64,000 nt of DNA from Psococerastis gibbosa (Eukaryota > Arthropoda > Insecta > Psocodea > Psocidae): assembly GCA_963971405.1 (NCBI GenBank), contig OZ020489.1, forward strand, positions 2,666,001 to 2,730,000, read 5' to 3'. Both the position numbers and the translations under genes were made by a program. The notes beneath the pieces are model-generated. The model was not told where the DNA came from and did no database searches. It was given only the letters and a program-made list of their open reading frames with translations. Below, piece after piece: positions 16,064 to 54,925 of the stretch. Numbering within the stretch: position 1 is the stretch's first letter; every line of letters begins with the position of its first letter.

Positions 16064-17010
16064 ACCTTATTAAGATAAAAAATATTCAGCTTTGTTGGAG
16101 CGATCCAGGGGTGGCCAAAATCAAAGGCGACCTTCCTCTTAACTACACGGAATAAAGTTCGAGCGTAATATTACCATGTAAAATGCAGACTAGGCTGGTG
16201 AATATGAGAGGAGAAGAGTGAGAGGGGGAGGGGCCCCACTGAGAATAGGTCTGCAGGGCGCTGGAGCCGGCCTGGCGCCCCCCCCCCCCCCCCCGTCTCT
16301 GCCCCCCCCCCCTGTAATGCCAATCTTACATGGCATGTACATTTAAACCTTTCATTGGCAGCTCGACATGGTAAACACTATCATGACAATGGCTCAGACA
16401 ATCTGGCATTGCGCTAAAATAACGGTCAACTCACAACTGCTATATATTTTTGGCACAAATTATACCTTAGGGTAGTTTTGTGTTGTTTATCTCGGGTGTA
16501 AAACGAGATATTACCATCAACTTTGAATTTCCAATTTAATTTATAAATTGTTTCATATAGTTTACTTGATTATCTCATTTATTCTCCATTCGACTCTTCT
16601 TAATATATTTTTCAAACCTTTTTGGTAGGGACTCTTTCCGATTTAAACAACAAACGTCGTTTACGTAGCGTTCACATTCAGCACGGTTTTCGCTCAAATC
16701 AGAACAAAATTATTCATCTATTCGTACTCATCTATACATCACCTCCCCCCCCCCCCTTCCATTGATGAGGAGTTTTCGATAAAAATAATATAATACGACT
16801 TTAACAAATTTTATTATGGAATGCTAATTGCCAAAGATACGGTATCTGCATGCCTATAAGAGTAGGTATGCAAACCATTCTTCGCTTAACATTATCGTCT
16901 ATATTCCAAAGTTCTTAAAGAGTCAGAAATGGTCCAAAATCAGGTCAACGACTTAGACGTGAAAAAATTGGCAGGAATTATTTACTAACACTATTAACTC
17001 TTTTGTGCAG
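16064..17010 (+). other. Intron upstream of the orcokinin B exon
   Basis: AT-rich with two C runs. I looked here and back to about 15 kb for a phase-1 exon with a signal peptide and found none that convinces. Confidence 0.5.
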
Positions 17011-18197
17011 GTGTCGAAGAAGAGGACTGGTCTAAGCCTGATAATAACTTCGAGGCTGACCACACACTCAGCAAAATAAATGCAGAGGATGGCGGATTTC
17101 AGGCCCGACGTGGTGAAGGAAGACACAAAGAAGCATTCGTCGGATCTCTCGGAGAGGGAATAACTTTTATAAGTCTGGAACCTCCGTTGAGAAACACGTT
17201 CAGAAGCAGAACTCCGCTAGACTCGCTAGGTGGTGGCCATCTTCTCAAGAGAAGCAATCTCAATGAAGCACCAAGAAAGAAAAAAATGGAACTGGACAAA
17301 CTAGGTGGTGGGCATATTTTGCCAAGAGGATTGGAAGGCAGTAACTTAGCGCTGGCAGAAATTGATAATATGGGAAATTTCGCTCCAGATGAAAAGGAAC
17401 ATACTTTGGACTGGAAAGATGGGACACTTAACGTATTTAACCCTCTCGTCGGCGCTAGTGGACATCCAATGAAAGAACAGCCCTCAACTTCTATGATATA
17501 TTCTATTAGCAGTGGCCCTATGCGTCGTTTGTCCCAGTCTTTAAGTAAAAATTTACAACGCTGGGGAATTGATCACTTTGGTGGTGGAAAACTTCTCGGA
17601 AAAGCTACAAAAGTTGATCGTCACCAATTTCGTCGAGGGGTAGAACATTCATCTCTTGATCATCTTGGAGGTGGGAATTTACTTCGGAGGGATCTCGGAG
17701 CGGTGGCTTCAGATCATATGAATGAAAACTTTCTAAGACGATCTGTAAATTTAGATCAATTAGGTGGTGGCCATCTCCTACGTCGAGAGATTGGATCAAC
17801 ATCCCTTGACCATTTGGGAGGTGGAAATTTACTCCGTAGACAGATTGAGAATGTGGCATTGGATCATCTAGGTGGTGGAAACCTTCTTAGACAAACTACA
17901 AATTTAGATCGGTTAGGAGGTGGCCATCTCCTGCGTCGAGAGATTGGGTCATCATCCCTAGACCATTTGGGAGGTGGAAATTTACTACGCCAGGATATTG
18001 GGAGTGCGGAATCGGATCACCTTGGTAGTGGAAATTTACTGAGACAAACTGCAGCTGTTTCCCGACTTGCTGAGGATCATTTGAATCTCCGACAACTTGA
18101 ACCAAGATCTCTGGACAAGTTAGGAGGCGGGCATATTCTGCTTCGGAGGCTAAACGAGGATCGAGCATTGGAACCAATCTACATTATCGAAGCTTAG
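17011..18197 (+). CDS. Orcokinin gene, B-type terminal exon (partial gene)
   Basis: This exon encodes the multi-copy B-type part of an orcokinin neuropeptide precursor. It starts after the acceptor ttttgtgcag, stays open from 17013 in one frame and ends at TAG 18195-18197. About eleven to thirteen copies of LDxLGGG(H/N)(L/I)L are separated mostly by RR or KR, for example LDSLGGGHLLKR, LDHLGGGNLLRR and LDKLGGGHILLRR. A long acidic spacer comes first. Some units are degenerate (GIDHFGGGKLLGK, SDHLGSGNLLRQ) or followed only by a single Arg, so not every unit need be released. The exon opens with the two bases gt before its first full codon, so the upstream exon must end in phase 1. Its own stop makes it an alternative 3' terminal exon. 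Orcokinins are secreted peptides of the arthropod nervous system and gut. The signal-peptide exon was not found upstream in the window. Identity of the family is firm; copy number depends on how many degenerate units are counted. Confidence 0.93.
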
Positions 18198-28613: not shown

Positions 28614-31600
28614 ATGGCCGATGATTTGAAAGAGAATAGTAATTTAAGGCCAAGATTTGGAAATAGACATTTAAATGATGTCTCAAAAGTGTTTCAGCAT
28701 AATGCATGGTAGGCTATTAATTAATTTTGTCCGAACTTTTAGAATATCAAGATATTATAGCGAGAGTTATGGAGAAAGTACAACCAGGTTAGGTTGTGAT
28801 GTGGAGCTTACAAGACACAGAAAGAAGCCACAATTTGGAGGGAGACGTTTAGTACAGTCTCATTTGTATGATTTTAATGCGTGGTACGTCAATTCTGTTA
28901 TATGTTACACCTAATACTTAGGTACATATTGAGACGGAGACCCAGCCAAGAAGTTCTAAGTTTCGGCTGTGTCCCTGATGGGCGACGTTTGAGAATGCGT
29001 AGAAACAGGCAAATACTGATATTAATGAGCGCACAGTGACTTTGGCTAGTATTTGGCAGACTGAGAGGTAAATCGGGTAAGATGTGCCATGCAGGTATTA
29101 ATGTATTGTTAATTTTTGTGTTGGCCGGATACGGAGCCTAGTTAGGTGTAACGTAGGACAAGTACAGTACTTGGGGAAGTCTGATGTCTATCAAACCTCC
29201 ACATTAGTAAGCAAAGTTGTCCATTGTTGCTTGGTTGTATTGGAGGCAAATGTCATATTACCAATAATAATGAAAATACTTTACTTTACTTTACTTTATC
29301 CAACGCCCACTCTTGGCGTTACCGCCATCTGGTGCCGCGCCTGCCAGTAAAGTGATGAGATGTCTTTGTTAGGGCTCTGGATTGCTTGGAATGTTAGAAG
29401 GTGGGCAGCATCCATACGTCCGCTGAGGCAGAGCGTGCATTGGTCTGAAGCAGCTAGGCCAGGCGAAACAGGTGAGCCTGCAGGTAGTCGTGGCCAGTTA
29501 TGCAGCGAAAACGGGCGACAGAAGTAGCTCTTGGTAGGTCTTGTGGCAAGGGAATTTTTACGCAAAGTTTCCCATGGCTGTCCTGTTGCGCTGGTTGATA
29601 GAGCGTTCTTATGTCTTCTAATTATTGCGTTATTAATAACCTTCTTCGCACTATTTACTGTTAGAGGGACTGCCGAATTCGCTGCACTTCTGGCTATCTT
29701 AGCTACCAGGTCTGCCTTTTCGTTTCCGGCTATTTCCACGTGGCTCGGTATCCATTGGACAGCAACTGTCCATCCTGAAGATTTTAAACTGGCTAGAACT
29801 CCCCTACATCCTATCGTCCTCAAACATTGTGTAGTAGAGTTGGTGCATGCCGCTGTGATCGCTGCCTGTGAGTCAACGAGGAACACAACCGGTCTAGGCT
29901 GTAGGTTGGCCAGCCTTTTACTTGCAGCGAGCAGGGCAGCTACCTCTCCATCGAAGTTGCTGGCAGGGACACCAACCGGAACTGATTCTTCAAATAGTTT
30001 ACAGAAGTATCCGGCTCCTGTTTGTGGTATAGAAGATCCATCTGTGTACACGTGCAGCCATTCAGAAGGAGGGTATAAATTCCTGATTGTATTTAACGCT
30101 GCCTGCTTTAGCTCTTGTTCAAGGCTCATTTTCTTCGGCTGGTTGTGGTCCAGCAGTGAATGAAAATAAGTGCAAGGGCAGTATCGTACCAAATATTATA
30201 TAAAAATATTTTGAAGGTTACAACTAATTGTTTTAATAATATTATTATTAACACTATTAAAATGTGAAACATAAAATTTTGTCCTGTATTTTAGGGACGA
30301 TGTTCAATGGGATGAAGAACAGCAAACAGCAGCCGAAGAAAAAGTATCACTCAATTCCAAAACGAAAATCACCGAAGAACGCTGTAAAGACTTGGAAGAC
30401 AACGCGGGCAAAAACTGGGACTTATTCTACGGTATCCATGACAACAAATTTTTCAAAGACAGACAATGGCTGTTCACTGAGTTCCCCGAGCTTAATCCGT
30501 CTACTGACGCGGACCCTGATAAAGAACTAAGAATTTTAGAAATAGGTTAGTGTCCTCAGTTCTTTGTTTGGTATGACAGAAATTGCCCAATATTGTGTAC
30601 ATTAAGTCAGTCATTTTTTTTAGTTTTTGAATAGAATCCAATTGAACAGGAAATTCAATCTGTAGACTCATTAATTATGTGATAAAGTACATAAAAGGTT
30701 CCTCTACAACATAGCATGAGGGTTCACACTGGGAGATCTGTTATTGCGGCAAATGGGTGCAACACAGGGTCTGTTCAGCAGATTTTTCCCTGCTCAAAGC
30801 TTCTGCTATTGCAGTTTACGGTTTTCTGAAAACCGTGCACCAATCACAAATCCCCAAACAAATCTGTGCACCGGGCCTTGGGAGAACTCAGATTGCTATA
30901 CACGGTATATTACTTTGTTTTAGGTTGTGGTGTTGGTAACACCGTCTTTCCCATCCTGCGACACTGTTCCCCCGAGCAGAAAGTCTTCATTTATGCCAGT
31001 GACTTCTCGGAGAAGGCCATCAGCATACTAAAAGAGAGCCCGGACTACGATACATCGAGGTGTCTGGCGTTTGTTTGTGACGCGACTGCTGACGATTGGA
31101 GGCCGCCGTTCGAAGAGGGCAGCTTGGATATTGTAGTACTGATTTTTGCGCTGTCTGCAATTCATCCTGACAAGTAAGTAGGCAGCACAAGTAGCTATAA
31201 TTGGATGTTTCTTATAGCACATGGTTTAAAGTAACCTATTAAGGATCTAGAGGAGGCCAGGGGGCCACGGCTCCCTCCAAAATGAAATACATGTATACTA
31301 GATAGAAATGAACGCAATGCACCCACTTCCGAAATTAAAGAATATTCAGGACTTAGTAGGGCTCGAACCCAGGATCTATGCCTTGCTGGATGCAACGAGA
31401 AGGTTGCCTCTTCAACCTAATTCTGACTGTATACCATATAATACTATAAAGAAAATTGGTAACATCCCACTTCCATAGATATACACCGTTATGGCCTTAT
31501 TATTATTAATTAGCCGTTCGCGAAGCTTTGCCGCGGTAAAACTGATTAAGTGCTCCATCCTTATGCTCCGCAAATTATCAATTAGGTTTAGTTCTTCATT

Positions 31601-34600
31601 GATTTTAGGTCCGGTACACACGGTCGTTCGAGCGCCGGTGATAAGCAGAGAAATTTGGCGTGGAAGCAAATGGGCTGGTGGGTTGTTGCAAAATACAGTC
31701 TAATTGCAAAGGCTTTTACGGCCGGTGTTACGTGGCGAAGTACTAGAATCCGGGATAATAAGCCGTATGGTCGTTCTGAAAGCGTACTTCCAAAGTTTCG
31801 TCAACATCTGCGGTCGACATCTTCAGTGACACTGCGTAGACTTCTAAGATCTCGGAGGCTCAGTAGCAAGTTGCTATCAGAACGACCACAGTCTACCATT
31901 CCGGATTCTATTGATTCGTCAAAAATACAGTCTATTTCTGAACGCACTTCAGAAGATTTCTAGGCGTGTCGAGGGGAAAACCGTGTACCTGTGACAAGCC
32001 TGGGACAAAACTCTGTTGAACCATTTGTTCCCCTGACAAATTTCTCAGCTGATCACCGGCGTTCAAACGCCCGTGTGGACCAGGCTTAAGCAAAGCGCAA
32101 CTAGCACAAGGGGCGTGTAGTTACTTCATGGCTTACCCTTTCCAAAAGTCTACAGACAGCCATTTTGAGAGAACATCACAGCCCTATTTGTTTCTTTTCT
32201 TGGTAACAGTAACAGCCAACTTCCCCCGATTTCCTTTCTGTAAAGGTTTTTCCAACGTATTGTAGGTATTTTTATTTCGGTCAGGTTCAGCCATGTGGTG
32301 CAAATGATAAAGAAGTACTTGGCGCCCGGTGGTGTGGTGCTGTTTCGGGATTATGGCAGGCACGACCTGGCCCAACTCCGTTTCAAAGATGGTCACTGTC
32401 TCGAAGACAACTTTTATGCCCGCGGCGATGGCACTCTGGTTTATTTCTTTACACAGGGTAAGTAAGCAGTTTAGCAGTAAACAGTTATCCACCATCGCTT
32501 GAAAGGTATCAGGAAGAAAAACTGGACGCCGCGGCTATTCATAGATTTATAGAAGGGGGATCTCCCCATTTTTTTTTTAAAAAAAAGCATGGGGTGAGAA
32601 GTAATTAGCTAATTTCTCGGCCAAGAGCCCTTATATGGACAAAAATGCTCTTTAAAACCGTCCTAAAATTCATTAACTGTGATAATACAGAATACATTTT
32701 TTTATGTAAACTATTGTTAATCGATAAAAATAGGTAATGTACGTCGTCTGCTTCTCTCATTACGTTATTTTTATTTTATAGATTAAGAGACAATAGGGGG
32801 GGGGGGGGAGGCATTAGAAGTGTAACCATCAAATATCTCATGCAATATCAATCTGAACGAACAAAGTAATTTTTCTGAGCATATGATTCCAACGCAGATG
32901 CGAATTTTTTACTCAGCGGTAACATGGTACCAGACCAGACCAGCAAACACTAGATGAATTGAACACCTTGTAGTACAAGAGCATTTGTAGCAACTTTTGC
33001 TAAGTCTTACCAATACATAGCACCAAAATTATTTAACTTACTACTAGATGTTTACTCTGGGTCTCTGCCAATAAATAAATTCTCAAAATTCATTCGGGAA
33101 TGGCTGATGAGACGGGTAAGGGTAGAATAATGATTTGAAACAGTAGATTAGACTGTTTGTTATGTGGGATTTGTTGTTTACTTGTAATATGTTTAATGTA
33201 ATTTAATTTTAAGGCAGGGATTGCTTTAATAGGTCTAGCGTACTTACAATTCAATTCAATTTACGTTTTACTTAGCCTACTTACTGATATAATGTTTAGA
33301 GGAAGTTGCCGTCTCAGCCTATATCATGTCCAAAATTAGAGGATTTAGAAAAAATTGGTTGTCTGTAAGTCGGTTTACGGACAATAGTTTAACGTGACAA
33401 CGCCTAAATTACTAAATCTTACATAAATAATATATGGCTGGAAAGAGAAAGAAATGTGGAAAAGCCCTGAAGTAGTTTAAATTTTTTAAATAGATAATAA
33501 CGCGGCCGAAAGAGGCCGCTTTGTTGAAAATCGTGCGCACCCCCTGACGTTTTACACCCCCAAAGCCAAACCCCTTGCTTGATCACCACAAATATAGCAT
33601 GGCCTGAAAGAGGAAGAATAGACATAGCCATGGGTATAATTTAAATTAAGATAGGCCTTCTACAGTACATCTGCCCAAAAAATTGCTTTAAGCCCACCCA
33701 TGCAATTCAAATGGGATTGCTGGAAATGCGTCTCAGTTTACTCATTTTGTGTTCAACTCGTGTTAAGGGGTGAAGGGGTCAATTTGAAACTATGTATTTA
33801 TACTCGTTTGAAACCTTAATTGATACTGCTTCTAATGAGACATTAAAAATTCATTTCGTGAGAAAATTGCAGGCTGTGGAATTTTTTTACTCTATGCATG
33901 TAAATTGAGTACGTTTTGAACCTGTTTTCCGCCGAAACACGGATGGCTGATACACTCACCTGACCCTGTACGAAGAGACTGATAGTAAAACTGAATATAT
34001 ATCTGGAAAGAGTAAGAAAGGTAGAAAAGAACTTTAGTAGTTTGAAGTTCTCAAATTGATATTAACACCCCCAAAAACGCGGCCGAAAAAGGCCTATTTT
34101 CGATTAAAATCGGCAAATTTGGGCGCACCTCCTCACGTTTCCACCCCCCCCCCCCCCCCCCCCCGAGAGTCGAACCCCTTGCCCTATCACAACAAATACA
34201 GCATGGCCTGAAAGAAGAAGAGTAGACAAAGCCATGGGTATAATTTAAATTGAGACAGACCTTCTACATCTGCCCAAAAAGTTTAAACCCGCGTTATGAG
34301 TAGAGGAAGAAGAACGCAATGATCCACAGTAAAATACTTTAATAGTGACCGGTTTCGGATAAAATCCATCATCAGATTCGTACCCACTATCTACGCCTAT
34401 CCGGGGCGTCGTCTTAACCGCTGAACCAAAAGCGCGACAAGTATTGTCTGTTAAATCCTCTGTCCTTGTCGGGCTTAAGACGACCCGCCGGGTAGGTGTG
34501 GATCGTTTCAAATCCCAGCAAGTCCAATTTTTCCTAAATCCTCTAATTTCGGCTATAATGAGGAGGTTTCTTCTTAAACCTAAAATAGTTAAATGGGAGT

Positions 34601-34869
34601 GTTATATATTATACTGATATTGTATATACATATATATATATACATTGTAATGAAAATTGATAGTCTACATTTCATATCCTCTTAACTTTTTCCACCACAC
34701 CTAACAGTTACTCTTATTTGCAGAAGACACACGAGAGTTATTTGGTGGTGCTGGACTAGTTGAGGAACAAAACTTAGTAGACAGGCGACTTCAAGTCAAC
34801 AGAAGTAAACTACTCAAGATGTACCGCGTGTGGGTGCAGGCCAAATACCGGAAGCCACTCGATAGGTGA
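28614..34869 (+). CDS. METTL2: tRNA N3-methylcytidine methyltransferase (METTL2/METTL8 family), cytosolic form
   Basis: The gene transfers a methyl group from S-adenosylmethionine to cytidine 32 of certain tRNAs, as known for the family. Exons: 28614-28708, 30295-30545, 30924-31173, 32285-32457 and 34724-34869 (TGA), with matching phases, 304 residues in all. Exon 1 ends [18 protein letters not shown]. Exon 2 continues DDVQWDEEQ and holds [15 protein letters not shown]. Exon 3 opens with the SAM-binding loop [12 protein letters not shown], then ASDFSEKAI and LSAIHPDK. Exon 4 holds [19 protein letters not shown] and [16 protein letters not shown]. Exon 5 holds [11 protein letters not shown] and [13 protein letters not shown]. 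All the family motifs are present, so the enzyme looks functional. An antisense LINE lies in intron 1 and an inverted-repeat element in intron 3. A second first exon overlaps the first (separate entry). The long linker seen in the human proteins between FTEFPEL and the SAM loop is short here. Confidence 0.93.
28675..28883 (+). CDS. Alternative first exon of the METTL2/8 gene, presequence-like
   Basis: A frame different from that of the cytosolic exon 1 opens at ATG 28675 (also 28678 and 28702), directly after an in-frame TAA at 28672. It runs to a second donor, gtacgt, at 28884. It ends in [17 protein letters not shown], plainly homologous to the end of the first exon 1, and in the same phase 2, so both can join exon 2 (DDVQW). 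Its start, [19 protein letters not shown] followed by SES, is basic and free of acidic residues for 22 positions. RYY-S fits the R-3 cleavage pattern of the mitochondrial processing peptidase. If the first donor at 28709 is not used, the cytosolic frame stops at once (HNAW then TAG), so this transcript would have to start at a later ATG. The protein would be 333-342 residues. In vertebrates the mitochondrial enzyme is a separate gene, METTL8. Mitochondrial targeting is inferred. Confidence 0.8.
29280..30192 (-). mobile_element. LINE 3' fragment with RNase H domain and (TAAAG)n tail
   Basis: A 5'-truncated non-LTR retrotransposon, antisense in METTL2/8 intron 1. The minus strand encodes about 298 residues without a stop, including an RNase H domain with all four acidic residues visible: [23 protein letters not shown] and [10 protein letters not shown]. 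It is followed by [15 protein letters not shown], a Cys/His block in which the last Cys is lost. The element ends in TAAAG repeats rather than poly(A). It belongs to the RNase H-bearing I/R1-like LINEs; the clade is not resolved. The open frame suggests a fairly young insertion. Confidence 0.88.
31325..31425 (-). repeat. tRNA-like SINE head in METTL2/8 intron 3
   Basis: On the plus strand gggctcgaacccaggatcta is an inverted B box, and gagaaggttgcctcttcaac follows. A related motif (gttgaagaggcaacctcctc) is found near 48745, so this is a repeat family. Confidence 0.45.
31605..32088. mobile_element. Inverted-repeat element M3 in METTL2/8 intron 3
   Basis: The left end taggtccggtacacacggtc and right end (complement taagcctggtccacacgggc) are imperfect inverted repeats that continue through cgccggtgat and agaaattt. 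The interior (gtttcgtcaacatctgcggt) recurs near 39340 and 40890. Confidence 0.7.
33015..33130 (+). mobile_element. CR1/Jockey-like LINE, last codons
   Basis: The frame [20 protein letters not shown] then [18 protein letters not shown] and a stop at 33128 matches the C-terminal end of CR1/Jockey-type ORF2 (LxNxLP...KFKxxLKxWL). It lies in METTL2/8 intron 4. Confidence 0.6.
34141..34164. repeat. Long C homopolymer (one of about a dozen)
   Basis: A run of about 22 C. Similar C or G runs of nine or more occur near 2888, 12190, 12288, 16280, 16745, 20665, 20947, 24340, 25313, 32797, 41341, 43944 and 51074. Confidence 0.8.
34385..34562. mobile_element. Two partial SINE-C copies in opposite orientation
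   Basis: An inverted head (cgtcttaaccgctgaacc) at 34410-34440 faces a plus-strand copy at 34465-34560 whose A box is deleted but whose B box (gtttcaaatccc) and cctctaatttcggctata tail are kept. It lies in METTL2/8 intron 4. Confidence 0.55.
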
Positions 34870-37338: not shown

Positions 37339-38312
37339 TCAAGGTCCATCCTTCCTTATATTTGGCCCACTTTGCTGAGATTAAAAATTGACACCCTGAA
37401 CCTAAGTGGACCCATTTATATACAGACGGATCCAAAAAAGATGACAGAGTCGGTGCAGCCTTTGTGATAGGAAAGGAAAAGTATATGTACACTCTCTTAC
37501 CATACACAACGGTTTATTCAGCTGAACTATTTGCAATATTACAGGCTCTTTTATACATCCATGAGCATCACTTGGAATTCTCCATTATTTTCACAGATAG
37601 TTTTAGTGCCCTAGAAGCCCTAAAAAATAGTTCCGCTGAAAACACTCTCCTTATTTCAGCCATTCACGGCTCATATAAACAGATCTATGCACAAGGTGTC
37701 GTGAAATTCTGCTGGGTACCAGCACATGTAGGCATCTCGGGGAATACGGCAGCAGACAATGCCGCTAAAGAGGCAACAACAGCAATTTCAGTCCCATGGC
37801 CATTAACCACCTTGTATGATGTGCGCACCTACATCGATCATCTGGTCAGGCTAGATTGGCAGGGGGATTGGAGTGGTCCATCGCATAATTACAACAAGTT
37901 ACGAGACATTAAACCCCGCCTGGGGTGGTGGGCAACAGCCAGCCGCCCTTACAGACGAGAGGAAATACTGCTGTCGCGCATGCGTCTGGGCCACTCCAGG
38001 CTTACCCACGGCCACCTTATGACAGGTGAACCGCCTCCGAACTGCCAGTTTTGTAGCGTACCACTGTCGGTGGAGCACATCATACTGGCGTGCCCGAGTT
38101 ACGCTGGCCCCAGAGCCCTTCTTCCGCTCCCCCTCACTCTGCAACACCTGCTGGGAAATGACGAGAAGGTAACCTCTCTCGTCATAAAATTTCTAATGTC
38201 AACCCCCCTCTTCGGAACACTCTGAGAAGGGCTGGGTTTGGCGCGATAACAACATGAGCGCGGAAGCCCAAAACGGGTAGAGCGCCTAGCATATTATTAA
38301 AAAAAAAAAAAA
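37339..38312 (+). mobile_element. LINE 3' fragment with RNase H and zinc knuckle, flanked by 11-bp target-site duplications
   Basis: A 5'-truncated non-LTR retrotransposon. The frame from about 37404 to 38225 gives YTDGSKKDDRVGAAFVIGK, SAELFAIL, IFTDSFSALE and GNTAADNAAKEA, the four acidic residues of RNase H. The Cys/His knuckle CQFCSVPLSVEHIILACP follows. It ends in a poly(A) run at 38299-38312. Direct repeats ctaaggtcagg at 37328-37338 and 38313-38323 are perfect target-site duplications. An in-frame stop near 37390 lies ahead of the RNase H part. It inserted between two head-to-head SINE-A copies. Confidence 0.92.
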
Positions 38313-53440: not shown

Positions 53441-54346
53441 TAGCGCTACAACAGAGCTTGGGAAGGTCTACCACTACAAAGAATTAGTGTTTCTGCCAGG
53501 GCAACAGGCTGGCCCACCACTACACGGAGACACTTCTACCTCCGGGCTACGTCGACTCGGACCACTACCAACCCTGATAGCGCTAGTGCATAGCTTCGAG
53601 AAATATACCACGACAAAGAAACCGTTCTACTCTGTGCTGGCGGCTTACATTTCAACCAGCACTTCTGGCAGACTGACCACTACACGAAGATAATTCTACC
53701 TCCAGACTATGTCGATTCGAAACCATTATAGACCATAATAGTGTTGTAGTAGAGCTTTTAGAAACCTACTACTGCAGTAGTTCTACTCTACCTAAATAAA
53801 ATTATCTACTTGGGTTCGGACCATTATAAACCTGAGCTGAGAGAAATCTTCCAGTACACCGAAATAATTCTACTCTAAGTTGTCTACATTTTTGCATCTA
53901 CAAGCTATAGTAGAATCACAGCGAGACATCTATTTCGGACTGTATGAAACTGTGATGTACATAACTACAATAGAGAATATGAGAATTCTACCACTATATA
54001 GAAATAGTTCTACTGCGGGTAGCTTTCACTTTTATCTCAACTTGAAAACATCAGACATTTGGAATTCTATGATTCCTACCAATTAAAACCTGATAGCGCT
54101 GCAATAGACCTGGGAGAAACCTGCCACTATAAAGAAATAGTTCTACTCTGGACTACTTAAATGTCTACTTCTATAAAACTTAATAGAATAAGATCAAAGC
54201 ACTAGAAAGAAATAGTGGTTACCTTCAGGCTACATCGACTCTACCAGTTCTGCAGTAGAGCTCTGAGAGAACTTAGACGAAGCCTCTCACTTACATGGGA
54301 AAACTTCTAACTCCAGAAAACTTACACTCCAAACCCAACTAGCGAC
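53441..54346 (+). repeat. Decaying tandem array of the preceding gene's last exon
   Basis: The end of the last coding exon (CACTATACAGAGATAGTTCT, CCTCCGGGCTACGTCGACTC, GGACCACTAC, CCTGATAGCGCTACAA) recurs about six or seven times at irregular spacing of roughly 80-160 bp up to the ARL6 start codon. The first copy (near 53520-53590) is almost identical over the GGGCTACGTCGACTCGGACC block. Later copies drift, keeping pieces such as GAAATAGTTCTACTC and CCTGATAGCGCTGCAATAGA. None keeps a long frame. It lies in the 3' flank of the gene, and at least part of it is probably transcribed as 3' UTR. Confidence 0.75.
53795..53800 (+). terminator. Possible poly(A) signal of the VOPP1/WBP1-like gene
   Basis: AATAAA lies 355 bp after the stop, inside the decaying terminal-exon array. 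Confidence 0.4.
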
Positions 54347-54925
54347 ATGGGACTCTTTGACAAACTCTCCGCCTTCATCCAGTCGAAGAAACATCTAGAA
54401 GCCCACATCATAGTCGTTGGGCTAAACAACAGCGGTAAATCATCCGTGGTAAGCCAGTTCAAACCAGAAGAAGAAAAAAACCTCGACACCATAGTACCTA
54501 CAGTTGGTTTCAACGTGGAGAAATTCAAAAACCAAAATGTCGGCTTTGTCGCCTTCGACATGAGTGGACAAGGCAGGTATAGGGACTTGTGGGAGCACTA
54601 CTACAAGGAATGCAGTGGGATCATTTTTGTTATAGACTCAAGTGACAAACTTAGATTAGTTGTGGTTAAGGAAGAGCTTAATATGTTGCTACAGCATCCC
54701 GATATAGCGGCGAAGAAAGTGCCTATTTTGTTCTATGCGAATAAGATGGATTTGAAGGATAGTTTGTCCAGTGTGAAGATTGCGGCGGGGTTGAATTTGG
54801 ATCGTATTTTGGACAAGCCGTGGCATATTTGTGCGAGTAATGCGCTGACGGGGGAAGGGCTGCAGGAGGGTGCTGAATGGTTTACCCAGCAAATTAGGGA
54901 GTATCTTTTGTACAATAAAACTTGA
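54347..54925 (+). CDS. ARL6: ADP-ribosylation factor-like protein 6 (BBS3)
   Basis: A 192-residue small GTPase in one uninterrupted frame. ARL6 recruits the BBSome coat to membranes at the cilium base. Motifs: P-loop GLNNSGKSS, switch I PTVGFNVEKF, switch II DMSGQGRYRDLWEHYYKE (the DMSGQG form is typical of ARL6), FVIDSSDKLR, guanine-binding ANKMDL, and PWHICASNALTGEGLQEG for the G5 loop. Length is close to the human protein (186). The start MGLFDKLS matches the family. There is no intron, no upstream coding exon and no poly(A) tract after the stop, so a retrocopy is possible but not shown. AATAAA at 54914-54919 lies inside the last codons (YNKT), so the 3' UTR may be very short. The gene begins where the decaying array of its upstream neighbour ends. 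Confidence 0.95.
   Translation: MGLFDKLSAFIQSKKHLEAHIIVVGLNNSGKSSVVSQFKPEEEKNLDTIVPTVGFNVEKFKNQNVGFVAFDMSGQGRYRDLWEHYYKECSGIIFVIDSSDKLRLVVVKEELNMLLQHPDIAAKKVPILFYANKMDLKDSLSSVKIAAGLNLDRILDKPWHICASNALTGEGLQEGAEWFTQQIREYLLYNKT

Follow-up and report, generated by a model that had tools for sequence, protein, structure and literature searches.

A window of 64,000 nucleotides from Psococerastis gibbosa (contig OZ020489.1, positions 2,666,001 to 2,730,000; the window is this whole stretch, and positions are counted within it) was found to hold a METTL2-type tRNA methyltransferase gene with two overlapping first-exon frames. Judged from its sequence, this one gene very probably makes both the cytosolic and the mitochondrial enzyme for 3-methylcytidine at position 32 of tRNA (m3C32), by using alternative donors within a single compound first exon. 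The frames, donors and phases can be read in the DNA, both classes of N-terminus are conserved, the genome search returned no second METTL2/8-type gene, and a mitochondrial tRNA carries a fitting substrate loop. From these we infer that both donors are used in this animal and that the second product is imported into mitochondria and methylates its tRNA there. The arrangement is also probably a dual-coding switch of long standing, shared by holometabolous insects and malacostracan crustaceans. In it the conserved HNAW stretch of the cytosolic enzyme would serve, in the +1 frame, as the start of the mitochondrial presequence, the donor would supply the stop of the first frame, and a single splicing decision would govern both m3C32 enzymes; the switch would then be the arthropod counterpart of METTL8.

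Two overlapping first exons in one METTL2-type gene

The gene occupies 28614-34869 of the forward strand in five exons, with GT-AG at the introns used. In the gene model exon 1A (28614..28708, frame A), which encodes the N-terminus of the presumed cytosolic isoform, is joined to exon 2 (30295..30545, where G-GAC-GAT gives W/DDVQW), exon 3 (30924..31173, with the S-adenosylmethionine (SAM)-binding GCGVGN), exon 4 (32285..32457) and exon 5 (34724..34869, ending with the TGA stop), and the product, isoform A, has 304 residues. Isoform B takes exon 1B (28702..28883, possibly beginning at 28675) in place of 1A and has 333 or 342 residues, depending on whether it starts at 28702 or 28675; its first exon encodes a leader followed by a second METTL2-type motif. 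The common body scored above the cut-offs of Pfam Methyltransf_23, _25, _12 and _11, that is, a seven-beta-strand SAM-dependent methyltransferase domain. The nearest structures by sequence are solved METTL6 chains. The closest proteins among the matches listed are arthropod METTL2, and the N-terminal FGxRxL...HNAW motif of METTL2 is present. In a tree of 42 hand-picked sequences, vertebrate METTL8 not among them, the gene body was placed among insect METTL2, within holometabolous insects and beside two Lepidoptera (support 0.76). Intron 1 also carries, between donor B and exon 2, a frame with an RNase H domain on the reverse strand (29296-30195), probably part of a retroelement.

The open stretch of frame B runs from 28675 to 28911, shifted by one base (+1) relative to frame A, and therefore begins inside exon A. 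The dual-coding stretch is thus 28675..28708, with ATGs at 28675, 28678 and 28702; the last of these lies within the letters for N-A-W, since AAT GCA TGG of frame A holds ATG CAT GG of frame B. Each frame reaches its donor in phase 2, partway through the Trp of ...NAW: frame A at donor A (28709..28710, ATG|GTAGGC), frame B at donor B (28884..28885, GTG|GTACGT). Both can use the same acceptor at 30295. If donor A is left unused, frame A reads TGG TAG and terminates at 28710-28712, in a stop codon made partly of donor letters. On a crude, hand-entered matrix the two donors scored alike, A at 6.76 and B at 6.86, which ranks them near the 97th percentile among the GT dinucleotides of the window. 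A further donor-like site, 28788..28789 (CAG|GTTAGG), whose phase relative to frame B is 2 when counted by hand, scored highest of the three (7.22); its use would yield a leader without the second motif. Between the two donors frame B has no stop, against 7 and 3 in the alternative frames.

An earlier note on this DNA had described two first-exon frames with METTL2-type N-termini, phase-2 donors at 28709 and 28884, a common exon 2 (DDVQW) and a stop right after HNAW when donor A is missed, and the gene model bears out all of these. Its picture of twin overlapping first exons holds as to the overlap, but the start of frame B lies within exon A, shifted by +1, and not after donor A; the donor-like site at 28788 is absent from its account.

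On this layout, splicing at 28709 would give the 304-residue, presumably cytosolic protein, whose METTL2-type N-terminus is acidic. When 28709 is skipped and 28884 is used, TAG would close frame A and an ATG inside exon A (+1) would start the 333- or 342-residue protein, in which a basic leader and a separate copy of the conserved N-terminal motif precede the common catalytic body. This isoform would presumably be imported into mitochondria to methylate C32 of mitochondrial (mt) tRNA-Thr, the task of METTL8 in vertebrates. Its start may be reached by leaky scanning, by re-initiation at ATGCATGGTAG next to the TAG, or from a promoter between 28614 and 28702.

Two N-terminal classes and the dual-coding test

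Homologs were drawn from two sets of matches (120 listed of 2918 and 120 of 3459), which together comprise 182 different proteins. Pattern matching assigned the class-A N-terminus to 134 of them and the class-B N-terminus to 52, with 7 matching both and 3 neither. The 7 double matches comprise five gene models that fuse A then B, in that order (P0004, P0005, P0023, P0064 and P0065), and two false pattern hits (P0087 and P0148); after these were dropped and a krill protein (P0140) was added by eye, class B stood at 46 of 182. The second of the two sets came from a class-B profile search in which 8000 candidates were scored; most of its 120 listed proteins were nevertheless class A, and by eye about 29 were class B. 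A region search with the B N-terminus alone gave no match (1 candidate, none scored).

Class B was found in six insect orders, namely Diptera, Coleoptera, Lepidoptera, Hymenoptera (Microplitis), Hemiptera (psyllids) and Orthoptera, and in Decapoda and krill. Both forms occur on equally long contigs in Anopheles moucheti, Anticarsia gemmatalis and Macrobrachium nipponense. Five class-B proteins of 330-435 residues lie on contigs of 1.1-2.1 kb (P0020, P0034, P0121, P0125 and P0171), which suggests that these contigs derive from spliced RNA. The frame-B peptide of the window shares T-x-x-R-K-K-P...G-x-R-x-L...F-N-A-W with class-B proteins in a 22-row alignment, and the class-B proteins begin at differing Met residues. 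Myriapods, odonates, a mollusc and an acorn worm gave class A alone among the matches listed, which is no evidence of absence. The expectation that relatives carry the second frame is upheld among the matches listed, in many arthropods, and the proposal of the earlier note that one gene makes both enzymes in this animal is supported, except that the N-terminal classes are widespread in insects and crustaceans and do not belong to this animal alone. One class-A METTL2 protein (P0059) was seen to have a long basic in-frame extension upstream of its usual Met, perhaps another route to mitochondria.

The overlap itself was tested with proteins only, by asking whether any DNA can encode a class-A peptide in frame 0 and a class-B peptide in frame +1. 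In the main run of 10 pairs (three from the same species on equally long contigs, two same-species, and five from related genera or families), 9 accommodated the class-B start over its full length of 7-10 residues, and the match stopped precisely at the Trp codon. Frame +2 never allowed more than 1 residue, and for the nine fitting pairs random draws attained an equally long match in 0 of 500 trials (once 1 of 500). A first run of ten pairs, which included the window's own, also gave 9 of 10; among the pairs present only there, Colias/Pieris and Eurosta/Rhagoletis fitted and Sarcophaga/Musca did not. Combining both runs and leaving out the window, 11 of 13 class-B starts were wholly readable in the +1 frame. 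When each class-B start (first 40 residues) was compared with 133 pooled class-A ends, a run of at least 7 was obtained for 26 of 46; no shuffled start among 46 reached 7, the longest run being 5. All but one of the 26 are assigned to Diptera, Coleoptera, Lepidoptera, Hymenoptera, decapods and krill.

Several results weigh against so wide an overlap. The two failing pairs were Sarcophaga/Musca (4 of 10 residues) and Anabrus/Gryllus, neither of them from one species. Twenty of the 46 class-B starts lack a run of 7; in seven of these the anchor Met is the first residue. The starts used are those predicted in the database. No run of at least 7 came from the named psyllids and Orthoptera (Schistocerca, Gryllus), which limits support for the overlap to four holometabolous orders, decapods and krill. 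Decapod proteins carry E or D, in place of G, directly after the anchor, which suggests a different boundary and an exon layout that probably varies.

Predicted address, genome search and tRNA substrates

The charge of the first 22 residues largely separates the two classes, class B being mostly basic with few acidic residues and class A acidic. Counting 45 homologs plus the window for class B, and 129 homologs plus the window for class A, no acidic residue was found in 31 of 46 class-B and 0 of 130 class-A proteins, and a net charge of at least +2 in 42 of 46 and 11 of 130, respectively. The isoform-B leader of the window has a net charge of +3 over 22 residues with one acid. Its first 20 residues, counted from 28702, are acid-free, in keeping with the earlier description of an acid-free leader ending R-Y-Y-S, an end which we take to be an R-3-like cleavage pattern. 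By contrast, the largest hydrophobic moment over 14 residues is 0.62 in isoform B and 0.77 in isoform A of the window; amphipathicity therefore does not single out B.

The assembly of the animal (409 Mb, 68 contigs) was searched with isoform A, and the best 5 candidates were scored, exon by exon. As the earlier note had expected, no separate METTL8 gene was found among them, only the exons of the METTL2-type gene and a METTL6-like gene; the METTL2/8-type gene is thus single in this search. The class-B exon also had a single match in the genome. The METTL6-like gene (one exon, C1:12855367, 40% identical) is distinct, so the window gene is not the one closest to METTL6. The METTL6-like protein is unlikely to be the mitochondrial enzyme: its N-terminus from the ATG is acidic, although the open frame extends 15 residues upstream to a TTG.

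On the mitochondrial contig (C68), tRNA-Thr(UGU) has the loop CUUGUAA, that is C32-U33-U34-G35-U36-A37-A38. This contains the full recognition motif of METTL8 in mt-tRNA-Thr, given as C32 with U34G35U36A37A38 in the part of PMC8752778 consulted. The mt-tRNA-Ser(UCN) (L022, 2216-2284, reverse strand) has the loop UUUGAAA and thus U32 in place of the C32 of a METTL8 substrate, so only one of the two human METTL8 substrates can be modified here, a point against full equivalence with METTL8. C32 occurs in 6 (Thr, Ala, Gly, Lys, Trp and Ser(GCU)) of the 26 listed tRNA candidates, some of which are surely false; C32 alone is therefore weak, and it is the full motif that counts. COX1-like stretches were also seen outside C68, for example at C14:11085363-11086704; they are probably nuclear inserts of mitochondrial DNA, one of them nearly full length and in two pieces.

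Rival readings, known systems and neighbouring features

It is extremely unlikely that frame B is untranslated, whether open by chance or a relic, and the chance reading was rejected because class-B homologs exist; the residues that frame B has in common with them, and the 7 and 3 stops in the other two frames where frame B is open, argue the same way. Another matter is how frame B is begun. The ATG at 28614 lies in a strong context (AAAATGG), and on a B mRNA starting upstream of it a 32-codon upstream frame would precede frame B, with its stop beginning 8 bases past the 28702 ATG. The B start would thus be hindered unless a downstream promoter exists, which counts against the reading favoured here. 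It is quite possible, if somewhat short of even, that frame B has its own promoter between 28614 and 28702 and that the coupling of TAG and donor is minor, a version compatible with two addresses. The strong context, which makes leaky scanning unlikely, and the differing start Met residues of class-B proteins would both suit such a promoter, whereas a separate downstream leader would have no need to overlap exon A, and an overlap does fit 26 of the 46 class-B starts.

It is also conceivable, though improbable, that both first exons are in use and that isoform B acts elsewhere than in mitochondria or on a different tRNA, for example in the nucleus or, with the help of a partner bound to its N-terminus, on other cytosolic tRNAs. 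The available part of PMC11479938 proposes that N-termini in this family, those of METTL2 and METTL8 included, carry partner or substrate specificity signals; exon 1B keeps a diverged copy of the motif and not a leader alone, and the hydrophobic moment does not favour B. Set against these are the mostly basic, acid-poor class-B leaders and the existence of a fitting mitochondrial substrate.

The catalytic body is that of METTL2A/METTL2B, the cytosolic m3C32 enzymes for tRNA-Thr and tRNA-Arg, and the nearest named proteins among the matches listed are called METTL2; the portions of the sources consulted do not mention an additional first exon with a leader for METTL2A/B. Isoform B would share with METTL8 the predicted address and the mt-tRNA-Thr recognition loop, as far as the consulted part of PMC8752778 describes them. 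The difference lies in the genes: vertebrates have separate METTL2 and METTL8, whereas here one gene would serve both, and mt-tRNA-Ser(UCN) has U32. METTL2A/2B and METTL8 are placed in a vertebrate-specific clade in the text available of PMC7237682. According to the same portion of PMC8752778, human cells also contain a detectable METTL8 mRNA isoform that lacks the presequence, so that splicing decides the address there as is proposed here; unlike in the window gene, the human variation lies within METTL8, beside separate METTL2 genes. The dual-coding exons of XL-alpha-s/ALEX likewise read one stretch in two frames (PMC2329644, consulted in part), but in the present gene both frames enter the same catalytic exons and would give two addresses to one enzyme.

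No paper on an arthropod twin first exon was found in the open-licence literature, and an Aedes study, in the part consulted, lists METTL2B and METTL6 for m3C and does not mention isoforms. Isoforms are already present in public annotation ('isoform X1', and 'isoform C' of D. virilis); the sequences are therefore not new, while the reading as overlapping frames with two addresses was not found in print. METTL8 is described as a vertebrate gene in the source portions consulted, which give no account of an enzyme modifying invertebrate mt-tRNAs. The locus offers a candidate answer for m3C32 in invertebrate mt-tRNAs that can be tested in Drosophila or Tenebrio. If the proposal is right, m3C should be present on mt-tRNA-Thr of this animal and absent from mt-tRNA-Ser(UCN), and the locus would be a natural experiment in which a presequence is forced to share letters with a conserved motif.

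Elsewhere in the window, an open frame at 16998-18197 (forward strand) contains many LGGGHLLRR / SLDHLGGGNLLRR repeats and has no Pfam match; it resembles an orcokinin-B-type neuropeptide precursor. A second frame with an RNase H domain, probably again part of a retroelement, lies at 37392-38225 (forward strand), and a frame for a small GTPase of the Arf/Arl type at 54311-54925 (forward strand).
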